In this document: piece by piece, positions 56,827-61,874 of the stretch
How positions within the stretch are numbered: the stretch's first letter is position 1
How the letters are laid out: each line of letters begins with the position of its first letter
Assembly: GCF_014695585.1 (NCBI RefSeq)
Contig: NZ_JACJON010000042.1
Span: forward strand, 1-64,000
Reading direction: 5' to 3'
DNA length: 64,000 bases
Source: Microcoleus sp. FACHB-831
GTDB lineage: Bacteria; Cyanobacteriota; Cyanobacteriia; Cyanobacteriales; FACHB-T130
Notes under the pieces: model-generated
Database searches by the model: none
Told to the model about the DNA's origin: nothing
The model's input: only the letters and a program-made list of their open reading frames with translations
Translations under genes and position numbers: made by a program

Positions 56827-56961
56827 AGCGATCGCACAGATCCCCCCAACCCCGCTTTTTAAAGGGGGCTATGCGTAAGTACCTATCAAATCTGTATTCT
56901 GACGGATGCTGGCTTTTGTGTAGTTTTATTAATTTAAAAGGCAGCGATTGTAGGAAAACTA

Positions 56962-58005
56962 ATGCCGGAAGGACCAGAAGTAAGGCGGTTTGCAGATTCG
57001 CTTTGCAAAGCGCTTGAAGGTAAAGAAATAATTTCATTAATGGCACGCACGCGGGGCGCAAAGGCTTGGCTGTTAGAGCATCCAGGTGTTTTAATCAACC
57101 GCCGAATTGAACGAGTGCGATCGCGCGGTAAGCACCTTTATTGTTTGATTGAGGGCGGCTACTATTTCCATTCTCACCTAATGATGTGGGGGAGATGGGC
57201 GGTGGAAAGTGAAGTACCTCTAGAGATAGATCGTCGGGAAAGAGCGCGAATTGTTGTGCCAGATGCGATCGCTATTCTCTACTCAGCACCAATTTTTGAA
57301 ATAGGTGCAGGCGATCCTTTTGAACTTGTCGAAAATCTACGCACTCTTGGCCCCGATATCTTACCTTATCCCGAAGAAGGATTATTTGATACTGTAAAGT
57401 TTAAAGAACGGTTGCTAACACCTGAAAACAGCGATCGCGCTATTGGTGCGGCGTTACTCGATCAACAAATCTTAGCCGGAATTGGTAATTATTTGAGAGC
57501 GGAAATTTTGTTTGATTGTCGCCTCGACCCTTGGAAATTGGTTGGCGAGTTGACAACAAATGAACTGGAACGATTGTGCGAGTCAATTGTTAAACTAGCG
57601 CTGCGAGCCGATGAGAAGGGCGGGGTTACTGTTTCTGATGAAGAGCGATCGCGCATGAAAACTGATTCTACGCTAGTTTATCAACTCGGACGCGAGTATG
57701 GGAATCGGCACTATGTTTTTCGTCGCACCAATTTACCTTGTTTGAGATGTAACGACACAATTCGCCAATTGCGTCAAGTGACAAGAGCGGATGAAGAAGG
57801 CGAGAAAAGTAGGATTATCTACTTTTGTCCTAGTTGTCAGGGGACGACGGTAGAGCTTAAGAAATCAAAAAGCAAGTCTTCTAAAGTTGCGGCTGAGGGA
57901 AATAAAAATGATGCAGAGATTGCCTCAAGTTCTATTAAAAAGACGGGGAAGCGATCGCGTCCTCCCGTCGATAATAGCGAAAATATTAATCAGGTGAATG
58001 TATGA
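56962..58005 (+). CDS. Fpg/Nei-family DNA glycosylase
   Basis: 347 residues. N-terminus MPEGPEVRRFADSL gives the catalytic Pro2 and Glu3. The middle has the helix-two-turn-helix region ILAGIGNYLRAEILF, and the C-terminal zinc finger has two Cys pairs (CLRC and CPSC), followed by a Lys/Ser-rich tail of about 50 residues. It removes oxidised bases and cuts the strand by AP-lyase action. The wide sequence divergence from cyanobacterial MutM suggests a Nei-like second enzyme. It overlaps the ligase gene by ATGA, so the two form an operon. Confidence 0.88.
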   Translation: MPEGPEVRRFADSLCKALEGKEIISLMARTRGAKAWLLEHPGVLINRRIERVRSRGKHLYCLIEGGYYFHSHLMMWGRWAVESEVPLEIDRRERARIVVPDAIAILYSAPIFEIGAGDPFELVENLRTLGPDILPYPEEGLFDTVKFKERLLTPENSDRAIGAALLDQQILAGIGNYLRAEILFDCRLDPWKLVGELTTNELERLCESIVKLALRADEKGGVTVSDEERSRMKTDSTLVYQLGREYGNRHYVFRRTNLPCLRCNDTIRQLRQVTRADEEGEKSRIIYFCPSCQGTTVELKKSKSKSSKVAAEGNKNDAEIASSSIKKTGKRSRPPVDNSENINQVNV

Positions 58006-60923
58006 TTAACTCCGCCAAGTTAAACATAGAGGAAAATACTGGAGCGTTGAGCCGTTTTGCCAGCGTTGCCGAACAAGTTGCAGCAACAACTAAGCGGACA
58101 GAAAAAGCAGCATTTTTGGGAAACTATTTCACCTCTCTATCTGATGATGATTTGTCTCATGCTGCGCGATACTTTGCCGGATATATATTTCCCCTGCGAG
58201 ATCAGCGCACAATTAATATTGGTGGGGCGGCATTGCTAACAGCAATAACGGCTGTTAGCGGAGAAGAGAAATCGGCATTACAAACAAGATTAGTAACGCT
58301 TGGCGATCCTGGGGATGTAGCAGAAGAAGCTTTTAATAAAAATGTAAATATTGATGGCGATAACCAGAGTCTTACACTTTCTGAATTATCAAATAAACTT
58401 GAAAAATTAGCAGCGACAACAGGAAGCAAACGTAAAACTGAGCTTGTCACAGAATTGCTTAAGGTGGCAACGCCAGTTGAAGCGAAATATATAGTTAAGC
58501 TATTAGCAGGCGATTTAAGAATTGGGCTTAAAGAAGGTGCAGTTGAAGATGCGATCGCTCGCCTTTTCAAGACAAATGTTTCTAAAGTTCAGTGGGCAAA
58601 TATGCTAACTGGCGATATTGGCGAAACTGCTTTACTAGCGCGTCACCAAAGACTTGATGACGCGCGGATGCGGCTATTCCATCCTATTAAATTTATGCTC
58701 GCTAGTCCCGCCGCAGATTTAACAGAAGTCGCGAAACAAATGCCTTCAGGATTTGCCGTTGAAGACAAGTATGATGGAATTCGCGCTCAAATTCACCTTG
58801 CACCAGCCGAGGAAGATAACTCGATTCTTCACGGTAATATCCATAATGGTAGGCGCGTTGCCCTCTTTTCAAGAACGCTTGACGAAATTACCCAAAGCTT
58901 TCCAGATTTAATCGATCCAATTGCTGGAATTATATCAAGTGAAGCCGCAAAGGGTGAAGAGGGTGGTTTAATTTTGGACGGGGAAATTGTGCCCGTTAGG
59001 GATAATGAAATTTTACCTTTTCAAGAATTGCAAAAGCGACTTGGACGCAAGAAAGTTTCAGAGGAATTACTTGCCGCTGTCCCTGTTGGATTTATTGCCT
59101 ACGATGTGTTGTACGCTCAAGGGCAAGTGTTAATTAATCAGCCCTTTTCCCAGAGGCGGAAGATTTTAGAATCTCTACATTTTGACACTCTAAGGGTACG
59201 TTGTGCTGCTTCAAAACAAGTCCCAGATATTTCCCAATTAGATGAAGAATTTGCCGCAGCGCGAGCCAGGGGAAATGAAGGCTTGATGGTGAAAGATTTG
59301 GATTCTACCTATAAACCTGGTAGGAGAGGACGAGATTGGCTGAAAATTAAACGCGCACTGGCAACGCTTGATGTTGTTGTGACAGCAGCCGAGGTAGGAA
59401 ATGGCAAACGGCATCGCTTTTTGTCTGACTATACTTTTGCCGTGCGAAAGAGCGAAACAGATCCAACACTTTTAAATATTGGTAAGGCTTATTCAGGGTT
59501 AACAGATGCAGAGATAACTGAGCTTTCCGAGTGGTTTCGCGCTCATACTTTGCAAGAGTTAGCGCATGGTAAAGTGTGTTTGGTGGAACCGCGCATCGTC
59601 CTTGAAGTGACTTTCGATCTCGTGCAAGCTTCGACGCGACATGAAAGCGGTTATGCGCTAAGATTTCCGCGCATTTTGCGGGTGAGGAATGATAAGCCTG
59701 CTGAAGAAATTGATACGCTTGAAACTGTGCGTCGTTTGGCGGAAACTGCACCTTCTGAACCTGCAACTGATAAACAGGAATCTTTTGTTGATGCTGCTGC
59801 TAAATTGAATATCCCTCCACCCCCCCTTGGAGGCAATAGTGAATCTGGTATTTTTCAGTTAGAAAATGATATAAACCAAACCCCAAATATTGAAGCAGCG
59901 CACGAGGCTTTTAAAGCTTTTATTGATAGCAGCGATCGCTCTAAATCTATAGCAATACTGCACGACTCAGACGCCGATGGCGTGACTGCTGGGGTTGTAT
60001 TGCAGCTAGCCTTGCAACGCGCTGGATTTGAGAAAGTAACCCGCGTTATACCCGATCGCGATCGCAATGCGTGGACGCCTGCAAACCGCGCTCGCGTCTC
60101 TGCTGTTACACCCGATCGTTTATTTGTACTCGATCTCGGTAGCCAATCGGAACCAGTAATTAATAATGTTCCTACTTGCTTTATCGATCACCACCGTCCT
60201 GAAGGTGTCCCGTCTAATGATACGCTGATTAGCGCTTACACTTGGGAGCCAATTCCTAACACCTCGCTGATAGTTTGGGAACTCTGTCAAGAAATTATAG
60301 ATGTATCAGATTTAGATTGGATTGCAGCTATCGGGACAATGAGCGATTTAGGTGAAAAGGCTCCTTTTGAAATGTTGGCAGTTGCTAAAACTAAGTACAC
60401 AGCAAAATATTTAAAGGAAGCTTCTGCCTTAATTAATGCAGCGCGGCGTGCTTCCCACTACAATCCAGAAGTAGCAGCGCAGGCGTTGCTTACGCATAAA
60501 GATCCGCGATCGCTCGTTAATTCAAACAACCCCGAAGTTGAGCAACTTCGATTAGCTAAGGCGGAAGTTAATACAGCACTTCAAGAGGGAAAAAAAGCAG
60601 CACCAATTTTTGCTGGAAATGTCGCTTTAGTGCGTGTAAATTCACCTTGTCAAATTCATCCGCTAATCGCACAAAGTTGGCGCACGCGATTACCAAAATA
60701 TGTGGTTATTGTAGCGAATGAGGGATATATTCCCGGTCGGATTAACTTTAGCGCCAGAACGTCATCGGGGGTCAATGTCCTTGACTTGTTACGCGGTATA
60801 GAATTATCAGAAGGTGAGGGTAGCTACGGACACGGACACGATAGCGCATCTGGAGGAAGTTTGCCACGCGATCGCTGGAATGAGTTGCTGATCAAACTGG
60901 GGTTTAATATCACCGAAAATTAA
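58002..60923 (+). CDS. ATP-dependent DNA ligase fused to DHH/DHHA1 phosphoesterase
   Basis: 973 residues. The first ~590 residues form an archaeal-type ATP-dependent DNA ligase: a DNA-binding domain, the adenylation motif EDKYDGIRAQIH with K256, GLMVKDLDSTYKPG, DWLKIKR and an OB fold. After a repeat-derived linker (IPPPPLGGNS), a DHH domain follows with HDSDADG (654-660) and DHH (729-731), then a DHHA1-like end (GHGHDSASGG). Cyanobacteria normally rely on NAD-dependent LigA, so this is an extra ligase. Together with the glycosylase it gives base removal, nicking, end trimming and sealing. Confidence 0.9.
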   Translation: MINSAKLNIEENTGALSRFASVAEQVAATTKRTEKAAFLGNYFTSLSDDDLSHAARYFAGYIFPLRDQRTINIGGAALLTAITAVSGEEKSALQTRLVTLGDPGDVAEEAFNKNVNIDGDNQSLTLSELSNKLEKLAATTGSKRKTELVTELLKVATPVEAKYIVKLLAGDLRIGLKEGAVEDAIARLFKTNVSKVQWANMLTGDIGETALLARHQRLDDARMRLFHPIKFMLASPAADLTEVAKQMPSGFAVEDKYDGIRAQIHLAPAEEDNSILHGNIHNGRRVALFSRTLDEITQSFPDLIDPIAGIISSEAAKGEEGGLILDGEIVPVRDNEILPFQELQKRLGRKKVSEELLAAVPVGFIAYDVLYAQGQVLINQPFSQRRKILESLHFDTLRVRCAASKQVPDISQLDEEFAAARARGNEGLMVKDLDSTYKPGRRGRDWLKIKRALATLDVVVTAAEVGNGKRHRFLSDYTFAVRKSETDPTLLNIGKAYSGLTDAEITELSEWFRAHTLQELAHGKVCLVEPRIVLEVTFDLVQASTRHESGYALRFPRILRVRNDKPAEEIDTLETVRRLAETAPSEPATDKQESFVDAAAKLNIPPPPLGGNSESGIFQLENDINQTPNIEAAHEAFKAFIDSSDRSKSIAILHDSDADGVTAGVVLQLALQRAGFEKVTRVIPDRDRNAWTPANRARVSAVTPDRLFVLDLGSQSEPVINNVPTCFIDHHRPEGVPSNDTLISAYTWEPIPNTSLIVWELCQEIIDVSDLDWIAAIGTMSDLGEKAPFEMLAVAKTKYTAKYLKEASALINAARRASHYNPEVAAQALLTHKDPRSLVNSNNPEVEQLRLAKAEVNTALQEGKKAAPIFAGNVALVRVNSPCQIHPLIAQSWRTRLPKYVVIVANEGYIPGRINFSARTSSGVNVLDLLRGIELSEGEGSYGHGHDSASGGSLPRDRWNELLIKLGFNITEN

Positions 60924-60961: not shown

Positions 60962-60995
60962 GACTCCGGACTCCGGACTCCGGACTCCGGACTCG
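60962..60995. repeat. tandem heptamer GACTCCG, about 4.7 copies
   Basis: Four perfect copies of GACTCCG (60962-60989) and a partial fifth stand between the ligase gene and the nucleoside hydrolase. This is a short tandem repeat of the cyanobacterial STRR type. Confidence 0.85.
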
Positions 60996-61013: not shown

Positions 61014-61874
61014 ATGATTGATGTAGTTTGGGACATGGAAACTGGCGATCCGGATGATTTTTTAACGCTATTGTTGTTAATTGGACACCCAGAAGTTAAC
61101 CTCAAAGCTGTTACAATCACCCCCGGAACGCCAGATCAAATCGGACTGGTGAGATATGCGATCGCGGAATTTAATTTAGATATCCCTGTCGGCGCTTACA
61201 ACATCGAACATCCCAAGCAATGCGTCTCTAAATGGCACTACGATACTTATGGCAACATTCCCCCCTCCCGCGATGCAGAACCTGGGGGAGAAATTTTGCT
61301 GCGCTATTGCGATGAAAATACAACGCTAATTACAGGATGTCCCCTCAAGAATGTGGGAAGCGCTATGAAGTTAAATTTCAAAGTGGGGCGTTTGTTTGCC
61401 CAAGGTGGATTTGCAGGCGAGGGTGTAGTTCCATCAGAAAAACAATTAGATAAGTTTAAAGGGATGGTGACTTGCCCTACTTACAACCTCAACGGCGATT
61501 CAAAATCTGCTCTCGCTGCGCTTTCTTATTCCGGCATTAATATTAGACGATTTGTGTCTAAAAATGTCTGTCATGGAGTTTATTACGACCAAAATATGCA
61601 CGAATATTTTGCAGCAGTTAAAGCCAAAAGTAAGTCTCTTGCATGGATTTGGCAGGGGATGGATGTTTACCTGCGATCGCACCAAAGCGGGAAGAAATTC
61701 CACGATCCTTTAGCAGCTTGCTGTGCTATTGATGAATCTATCGCTACTTGGGCAGAGGTAGAGTTGTACCGCGAAAAAGGTCAGTGGGGGTCGAGATTAT
61801 CTCCTGGTTCTGGGACGTGGATTATTATCGATTACGATAGCGAGAAGTTTATCTCTACCTTGACAGCATATTGA
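61014..61874 (+). CDS. nucleoside hydrolase (IUNH family)
   Basis: 286 residues. The metal/ribose motif is DMETGDPDDFLTLL (residues 7-20), a variant of the usual DTDPGxDD, and the C-terminal Asp lies in KKFHDPLAACCAID. The middle has GGFAGEGVVPSEKQ in place of the usual GG(A/N)...N.AE. It splits N-ribosyl bonds to ribose and a base. The deviations suggest a substrate other than common nucleosides. In this cluster ribosylurea, the URC-pathway intermediate, is an attractive guess (inference). Confidence 0.82.
   Translation: MIDVVWDMETGDPDDFLTLLLLIGHPEVNLKAVTITPGTPDQIGLVRYAIAEFNLDIPVGAYNIEHPKQCVSKWHYDTYGNIPPSRDAEPGGEILLRYCDENTTLITGCPLKNVGSAMKLNFKVGRLFAQGGFAGEGVVPSEKQLDKFKGMVTCPTYNLNGDSKSALAALSYSGINIRRFVSKNVCHGVYYDQNMHEYFAAVKAKSKSLAWIWQGMDVYLRSHQSGKKFHDPLAACCAIDESIATWAEVELYREKGQWGSRLSPGSGTWIIIDYDSEKFISTLTAY

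Follow-up and report, generated by a model that had tools for sequence, protein, structure and literature searches.

A Nei-like glycosylase gene overlapping an ATP-dependent DNA ligase–RecJ-core fusion gene in Microcoleus sp. FACHB-831: a candidate cassette for long-patch base excision repair

Introduction

In base excision repair (BER), RecJ clears 5' flaps in the long-patch route; the Deinococcus radiodurans enzyme takes part in long-patch BER in vitro with PolA and LigA, its deletion leads to H2O2 and MMS sensitivity and to the accumulation of AP sites, and it requires a free 5' single-stranded DNA tail (PMC7515722). RecJ is active in recombination as well (PMC4846377). Bacterial ATP-dependent ligases of the LigB type are described from a cluster with the helicase Lhr, MPE and a ligase-associated exonuclease (TIGR04120-04123; Ejaz & Shuman, cited by PMC10140301), and fusions of an RMMBL nuclease to LigB are known from Opitutus terrae and Dry Valley metagenomes (PMC10140301).

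Here we describe a pair of genes, found in a window of 64,000 nucleotides of the cyanobacterium Microcoleus sp. FACHB-831, that joins a RecJ-like nuclease core to an ATP-dependent ligase on one polypeptide, next to a glycosylase of the Fpg/Nei superfamily. A literature search, with subscription papers largely outside its reach, found no description of such a ligase-DHH fusion.

Results

Layout and conservation of the gene pair

An earlier note on this DNA had read the locus as an Fpg/Nei-type glycosylase gene overlapping a ligase-DHH gene by ATGA, and the open reading frames, the overlap and the Pfam domains all agree with that reading (Table 1). The same overlap is present in a second, plasmid-like copy of the pair in this host and in the homologous loci L006, L001 and L015. 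For the glycosylase, ligase and DHH parts, dN/dS lies at about 0.05-0.25 in every computable pair, which indicates purifying selection and argues that the reading frame is not due to chance. The motif upstream of the glycosylase gene is common to the window, the plasmid-like copy, L006, L001 and L008, and it is a possible promoter or regulatory element; scans for promoters and terminators gave counts no higher than in shuffled sequences. Loss of the ligase or DHH catalytic residues in alignments had been named as grounds for rejecting the repair reading. All three active sites, that of the glycosylase included, are instead kept and under purifying selection, and the two residues singled out as catalytic, K256 and D729, are indeed the ligase motif I lysine and the first residue of the DHH motif.

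Table 1. Features of the gene pair, in positions of the window
Feature	Positions	Strand	Basis or remark
Conserved upstream motif TAY-N4-GAMGGATG	56894..56908	+	50-70 nt ahead of glycosylase start
Gene for a 347-aa Nei-like DNA glycosylase/AP-lyase (Fpg/Nei superfamily) with a Lys-rich C-terminal tail	56962..58005	+	Pfam Fapy_DNA_glyco and H2TH
Glycosylase zinc finger (C260-C292)	57739..57837	+	Four Cys invariant in 9 homologues
ATGA stop/start overlap of the two genes	58002..58005	+	4 shared bases; translational coupling expected
ATP-dependent DNA ligase–RecJ-core (DHH/DHHA1) fusion protein gene, 973 aa	58002..60923	+	ORF, Pfam, AlphaFold2
Ligase DNA-binding domain, aa 17-186	58050..58559	+	Pfam PF04675
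Ligase adenylation domain, aa 232-450	58695..59351	+	Pfam PF01068
K256, nucleotidyl lysine of the adenylation domain	58767-58769	+	Invariant among aligned homologues
Ligase OB domain, aa 472-565	59415..59696	+	Pfam PF04679
Disordered linker, ligase to DHH, aa 584-627	59751..59882	+	AlphaFold2 pLDDT < 50
RecJ-like DHH/DHHA1 nuclease core, aa 630-973	59889..60920	+	Pfam, structure superposition, RecJ alignment

The glycosylase and the ligase

The glycosylase has the features of the Fpg/Nei superfamily, namely an N-terminal Pro-Glu (P2, E3), a catalytic-domain lysine (K57), an H2TH domain and a C-terminal zinc finger (C260/C263/C289/C292), and the start, the lysine and the four cysteines are invariant in 9 homologues. 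It shares all of these with endonuclease VIII (Nei), whose model PRK10445 is the closest; however, its score of 151.4 bits lies below the NCBIfam cut-off of 252 bits for that equivalog; it is a distinct subfamily, and its gene overlaps a ligase gene.

The DNA_ligase_A_N/M/C domains span aa 17-565 of the fusion. Its place in the ATP-dependent DNA ligase superfamily (TIGR00574/dnl1) is given by a score of 285.5 bits against a cut-off of 217.8 together with the invariant K256, the KxDG lysine of motif I (EDKYDG), and the ligase part is of the archaeal/LigB type. The match to TIGR04120, the 'ligase-associated' LigB family, is good at 346.9 bits but stays below the cut-off of 400. As in the Lhr-MPE-Exo-LigB cluster the ligase is joined to a nuclease, whereas here it has a RecJ core and a Nei glycosylase as partners. 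Genes for Lhr, MPE or the exonuclease were not found around the window locus, the genomes searched gave no match to these three above the family cut-off, and the host genome gave at most generic helicase or beta-CASP matches. The host locus was thus not assigned to that cluster. A weaker TIGR04122-like exonuclease adjoins the DHH gene in genome G600 and the ligase gene in G608, and in G624 Lhr lies about 4 kb from the ligase-DHH genes. The RMMBL fusions likewise join a nuclease to a LigB-type ligase in a single polypeptide, although theirs is an N-terminal metallo-beta-lactamase-fold nuclease and ours a C-terminal DHH/RecJ core. The LigD/Ku end-joining system also has an ATP ligase and a nuclease function on one chain; unlike LigD, the fusion matches the NHEJ_ligase_lig models weakly (128 bits against a cut-off of 228), and a Pfam search of the 973-aa protein found neither the LigD polymerase nor the LigD phosphoesterase domain, which places it outside the LigD/NHEJ family.

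The statement that ATP-dependent ligases are unusual in cyanobacteria needs qualification, as such an enzyme occurs in 46 of the 386 cyanobacteria sampled; the majority are a different, unfused ligase of one picocyanobacterial family. The tree did not favour the idea that the fusion ligase is an ordinary picocyanobacterial LigB.

The DHH half is a RecJ core

Pfam places DHH at aa 650-764, and DHHA1 scores under the Pfam cut-off (20.2 against 25.9 bits); the predicted structure superposes over both the DHH and the DHHA1 domains of RecJ. The DHH part is modelled at pLDDT 90, and its best structural match is D. radiodurans RecJ (Z 30.7 over 318 residues, 2.8 A), with 19% identity in the structural alignment. 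In a motif comparison with the RecJ proteins of the host and its relatives, using residue roles from PMC4846377, the fusion has counterparts for the RecJ metal ligands, the IPxR arginine, the S-x-R motif and the late histidine. The key residues are D655/D657/D659, R686, D711, D729-H730-H731, D782, S917, R919 and H946, and the metal ligands of RecJ motifs I-IV and the DHH triad are all present. In the 5'-phosphate pocket, R686, S917 and R919 align with R109, S371 and R373, and R280 of motif V is without a confidently placed counterpart. Like bacterial RecJ (D. radiodurans 5f55, 6lrd), the DHH half has the DHH-DHHA1 core, the metal-ligand motifs and what appears to be most of the 5'-phosphate pocket, but it is without the RecJ OB and C-terminal domains and is joined to a ligase. 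The protein ends after DHHA1 and reaches 42.7 bits on the RecJ equivalog TIGR00644, against a cut-off of 396.9.

The earlier note had proposed that the DHH nuclease may clean blocked 5' or 3' ends left by beta,delta-elimination. In such a short-patch scheme, it would act as a 3'-phosphatase or 3'-end cleaner on the Nei products, in the manner of pAp phosphatase or NrnA-type DHH enzymes. Ranked by E-value, the first Foldseek match is to a PAP phosphatase from an archaeon (TM 0.70/0.77), the domain is as short as the NrnA-type proteins, and the cassette offers no other candidate for the 3'-phosphate. The VIA-align scores, however, put RecJ (30.7) above PAP phosphatase (27.5) and the NrnA/PDE types (about 18-20), and the pocket arginine of RecJ is retained, with IPHR becoming IPDR. 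We consider this scheme improbable. Because the predicted fold and the metal ligands are those of a RecJ core, and most of the 5'-phosphate pocket appears to be so as well, 5'-end trimming during long-patch repair is likelier than the clean-up of 3' or beta,delta-elimination ends.

Distribution of the fusion and its linkage to the glycosylase

At least seven further cyanobacterial genomes carry the fusion in intact or nearly intact form, and it is restricted to one cyanobacterial clade; it is the rare architecture that it had been taken to be. Absence of the glycosylase from the locus in all relatives would have weakened the case for a functional pair, and this is not what was found: the linkage recurs in five cyanobacterial copies and in at least three Armatimonadota loci, so that glycosylase-ligase adjacency is seen in two phyla. 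Armatimonadota and Acidobacteriota have the same ligase and DHH as separate adjoining genes, and glycosylase-ligase pairs are seen as well. Ligase and DHH genes adjoin in Pyrinomonadaceae, Capsulimonas and G624, and in G600 all three genes share a strand and fall within a stretch of about 16 kb. When the DHH profile was run across the phylum Acidobacteriota, 2 of 396 genomes were positive. In the split cases L171, L004 and L009, ligase and DHH share a frame and are parted by a stop codon, so that removal of this single codon could create the fusion. The parts are also separable, since Calothrix L012 has lost the DHH and keeps an open ligase; some genomes with the glycosylase and the ligase (G601, G602) have a divergent DHH or none.

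Perhaps, then, the fusion is a general end-processing and ligation enzyme that trims and seals nicks and breaks of any source (desiccation, recombination, replication), with the glycosylase as an occasional neighbour. The glycosylase linkage is absent in the Nostocales and Pyrinomonadaceae examined, with the fusion standing without the glycosylase in every one of these Nostocales (L002, L003, L005, L007, L010), and ligase and DHH occur without a glycosylase orthologue in G591, G596 and G605. In G824 the genes for a RecJ-like DHH and an ATP ligase overlap by ATGA in the opposite order, beside an AddB-like gene, and the role of RecJ in recombination would fit as well. Against this stand the adjacency in two phyla and the joint transfer of the two genes in three genomes; moreover, blunt breaks would need a helicase, because RecJ requires a free 5' tail. 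We regard this explanation as rather unlikely.

A second copy and horizontal transfer

The host carries the second copy of the pair on a 62-kb circular contig. The ends of this contig overlap by exactly 113 bases and its 4-mer profile falls between those of the host and Symplocastrum, which favours a plasmid over a contaminant contig; it is probably a plasmid, and may be a foreign one within the assembly. The second copy is 91% identical in DNA to copies in two other cyanobacteria. This identity runs from about 78 bp upstream of the glycosylase gene to near the end of the ligase-DHH gene, with none beyond, and because similarity is lost at the borders of the gene pair we conclude that the two genes form a horizontally transferred cassette, which moved as one unit in three genomes. 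Viral contigs held no relative of the DHH domain. Phages and plasmids (PLSDB) gave distant ligase matches only, none at 80% query coverage or above 60% identity, and therefore no described phage or plasmid in those collections carries the fusion.

On one side of the second copy is a Cap4-nuclease/NB-ARC (Cap4-NLR) gene and on the other a long pAgo with its Aga_Helical-REase partner, and a type I restriction-modification system is on the same contig; a HEC-01A-like gene lies upstream in L001 and an AAA/OLD-like gene in L006. These neighbours could point to a defence-island module that travels with anti-phage systems and either mends nuclease-damaged self-DNA or attacks modified invader DNA by base excision, restriction by base-excising glycosylases being an established principle (PMC10273834). 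Only one recently transferred subclade sits in such islands, however, and the window copy and those of the Calothrix clade lie among housekeeping genes. PADLOC matched no anti-phage model to either protein of the window pair, a ligase and a RecJ core suggest mending over attack, and the island location may merely reflect mobility, all of which makes a defence module very unlikely. It would be a long shot, too, that the pair is a portable repair unit of plasmids and defence islands which mends self-DNA damaged by the nucleases of defence systems (pAgo together with its partner nuclease, Cap4, restriction) and was later domesticated for the repair of chromosomal oxidative damage; if true, it would be a dedicated damage-repair partner of immunity.

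Discussion

On balance, we think it probable that the locus is a two-gene, horizontally transmissible repair cassette, in which a trim-and-seal enzyme of long-patch BER is coupled to its own starter glycosylase. Judging from its family and intact residues, the Nei-like protein would remove an oxidised or fragmented base and nick the strand. Fpg/Nei beta,delta-elimination leaves a clean 5'-phosphate and a 3'-phosphate. Host enzymes would take off the 3'-phosphate, and a host polymerase would extend from the cleaned 3' end and displace the downstream strand. The RecJ-like half, to judge by its fold and pocket residues, would degrade the displaced 5'-phosphorylated strand in the 5' to 3' direction, and the ligase half, given its domains and catalytic lysine, would seal the nick with ATP on the same flexible chain. 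Because the 5'-phosphate of the Nei product needs no trimming, a role for the RecJ part would be confined to 5'-dRP ends or to the stage that follows strand displacement. The earlier suggestion that the two proteins could carry out base removal, strand cleavage, trimming and sealing therefore stands in part: a glycosylase, an ATP ligase and a DHH nuclease with intact sites are predicted, but the two genes are not a complete pathway alone, since they include neither a polymerase nor an obvious 3'-phosphatase.

If the long-patch reading is true, one polypeptide carries out both closing DNA-processing steps of long-patch BER, 5' trimming and sealing, and its genetic coupling to the enzyme that starts BER would make it a natural channelled repair machine. 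A bacterial ATP ligase, of a kind whose role is usually unknown, would gain a concrete pathway and testable partners. The series from split operon to fusion that runs through Armatimonadota, Acidobacteriota and cyanobacteria illustrates a way in which such a machine could arise, and the defence-island setting of the probable plasmid copy points to a link between repair and immunity that can be tested.

Structure of the cassette

The pair of overlapping genes described in the earlier note, for a glycosylase and for an ATP-dependent ligase joined to a DHH/DHHA1 phosphoesterase, was confirmed by domain search, and of the residues named there, K256 is the lysine of the ligase and D729 begins DHH.

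Genes of the cassette in the window
Gene	Position	Strand	Description
GLY (Nei-like glycosylase)	56962-58005	+	347 aa; Fapy_DNA_glyco and H2TH domains
LIG-DHH (ligase-DHH fusion)	58002-60923	+	973 aa; overlaps the GLY gene by ATGA

GLY is an Fpg/Nei glycosylase whose nearest family is endonuclease VIII, with a score far under that family's cut-off, and nine homologues all keep its P2, E3, K57 and the four cysteines of its zinc finger. For GLY, LIG and DHH, dN/dS is about 0.05-0.25 in every pair allowing computation. The upstream neighbour is a peptidase gene. Upstream of GLY (56894-56908), the motif TAY-N4-GAMGGATG is kept in five copies, while the remaining leader diverges. A heptamer tandem repeat (GACTCCG x4.7; 60962-60994) lies just 3' of the operon, and about 90 bp past the operon, on the same strand, is a distant relative of inosine-uridine nucleoside hydrolases (61014-61874; Pfam, 40.7 bits), which is not conserved beside other cassette copies.

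The ligase part (aa 17-565) comprises N-terminal DNA-binding, adenylation and OB domains and is followed by the DHH domain. Its best matches of known structure are the archaeal ligases 3gde and 4eq5, and its best family matches (PRK09247, LigA_Halo and TIGR04120) are all under the equivalog cut-off; it scores above the dnl1 superfamily cut-off. In a tree with weakly resolved deeper forks, a single clade (100/100) holds the ten such ligases of cyanobacteria; it groups with Armatimonadota ligases (15 rows, 91/100) and next with those of Pyrinomonadaceae (17 rows, 91/99); the unfused LigB of other cyanobacteria is separate, on a long branch. The simplest reading of these sequences is acquisition of the cyanobacterial ligase by transfer from an Armatimonadota-like donor.

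Pfam places DHH over its cut-off and DHHA1 under. The AlphaFold2 model of this part (pLDDT 90) was placed with RecJ by Foldseek and VIA-align, the top VIA-align match being D. radiodurans RecJ with DNA (Z 30.7, 318 residues, 2.8 A), followed by archaeal RecJ (28), PAP phosphatase (27.5) and NrnA/PDE types (18-20). When aligned with RecJ proteins of the host and relatives, the DHH motif and metal ligands D655/D657/D659, D711, H730 and D782 have counterparts, as do R686 (the arginine past the third strand, IPHR -> IPDR), S917-x-R919 and H946, with roles taken from work on drRecJ (PMC4846377; PMC7515722); the same alignment gave no placement for the counterpart of RecJ R280 (motif V). In the full-length model (pTM 0.51) both enzymes are folded and aa 584-627 are disordered, suggesting that the linker is a tether rather than part of a fixed complex.

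Distribution and transfer

A search with the 973-aa query found the full fusion in Coleofasciculus, Symplocastrum, Nostoc (two), Dulcicalothrix and Calothrix; in surveys it occurred in 1 of 386 sampled cyanobacteria (the host) and in 5 of 293 genomes of the host's order. The Aliterella ligase frame is broken at a palindromic insertion (palindromic/tandem 24-bp repeat, L008:8917-8975), Calothrix PCC 7716 and FI2-JRJ7 have lost DHH partly or wholly, and in genome G413 a truncated GLY is joined to a ligase without its first third. In the Calothrix relatives at L012:7983-9749 and L011:7986-10070, DHH is gone entirely or mostly and the ligase frame is still open.

Outside cyanobacteria, each part has a gene of its own. 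DHH comes after LIG in Pyrinomonadaceae (L004, L175), Capsulimonas (L009) and genome G624 (L171), the two sharing one frame with a stop between them in L004, L009 and L171; Armatimonadota loci L014, L015 and L179 carry GLY-LIG pairs, and in genome G600 a stretch of about 16 kb holds all three on the same strand. GLY orthologues above 55% identity were found only in genomes having LIG. The order is reversed in genome G824 (L180:3390-6283), where a distant DHH gene shares ATGA with a distant ATP ligase gene near an AddB-like gene; this association of an ATP ligase and a RecJ-like DHH is either independent or very ancient.

A further complete copy, which also has the ATGA overlap, lies on contig C11 of the host. 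Its fusion protein is 78% identical to that of the window, whereas the C11 copy matches Symplocastrum and Coleofasciculus at 91-94% protein and 91% DNA identity; two genes compared between host and Symplocastrum, recA and xseA, gave 81% and 68% protein identity. Since high similarity begins about 78 bp upstream of GLY and ends near the LIG-DHH end in both comparisons, the unit transferred seems to have comprised both genes plus their own upstream region. C11 (62,128 bases; loci L178, L200, L201, L212, L213) carries genes for a ParA-like ATPase, a serine recombinase and a methylase-ParB protein, and its ends are identical over 113 bases, so it is probably a plasmid, a defence-rich cyanobacterial one: a long Argonaute with an Aga_Helical-REase partner lies on one side of the cassette and a Cap4-nuclease/NB-ARC gene on the other, and a type I RM system is also present. 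Defence-like ATPase genes lie upstream of the cassette in Symplocastrum (L006) and another cyanobacterial copy (L001). About 9 nt past the Symplocastrum fusion gene, on the same strand, is a 1221-aa open frame (L006:10883-14545) with no Pfam or PADLOC match. Anatomy, conservation, linkage, transfer and predicted fold are what the analysis shows.

A possible repair route

Beta,delta-elimination by Fpg/Nei enzymes leaves 5'- and 3'-phosphates, so the role proposed earlier for DHH, cleaning of blocked ends, would need 3'-phosphatase activity, which the RecJ-like features of sequence and model do not favour. The earlier interpretation is sound in its outline; its role for DHH is probably wrong, and the scheme is incomplete as a pathway. 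In D. radiodurans, long-patch repair involves strand displacement by PolA, flap degradation by RecJ, which is not a canonical dRP lyase, and sealing by ligase (PMC7515722). The anatomy of the cassette, in which a ligase carries a tethered RecJ core and the fusion is coupled to a Nei glycosylase, fits such a route; all activities, their order and substrates we infer.

LigB is usually accompanied by Lhr, a phosphoesterase and a metallo-beta-lactamase nuclease (PMC10140301). In contrast to that cluster, the host genome has no match at cut-off for the ligase-associated exonuclease, Lhr or MPE, and membership of its cassette was rejected. Some Armatimonadota show a bridge to the cluster: in G600 the genes for DHH and a TIGR04122-like exonuclease are divergent, in G608 such an exonuclease adjoins LIG, and in G624 about 4 kb separate an Lhr from LIG-DHH. 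Fusions of LigB to a nuclease, with the RMMBL domain at the N terminus, are already known (PMC10140301), and the present fusion is another variant of this class of nuclease-ligase repair fusions; the cassette gives it an unusual, testable link to mobile defence islands.
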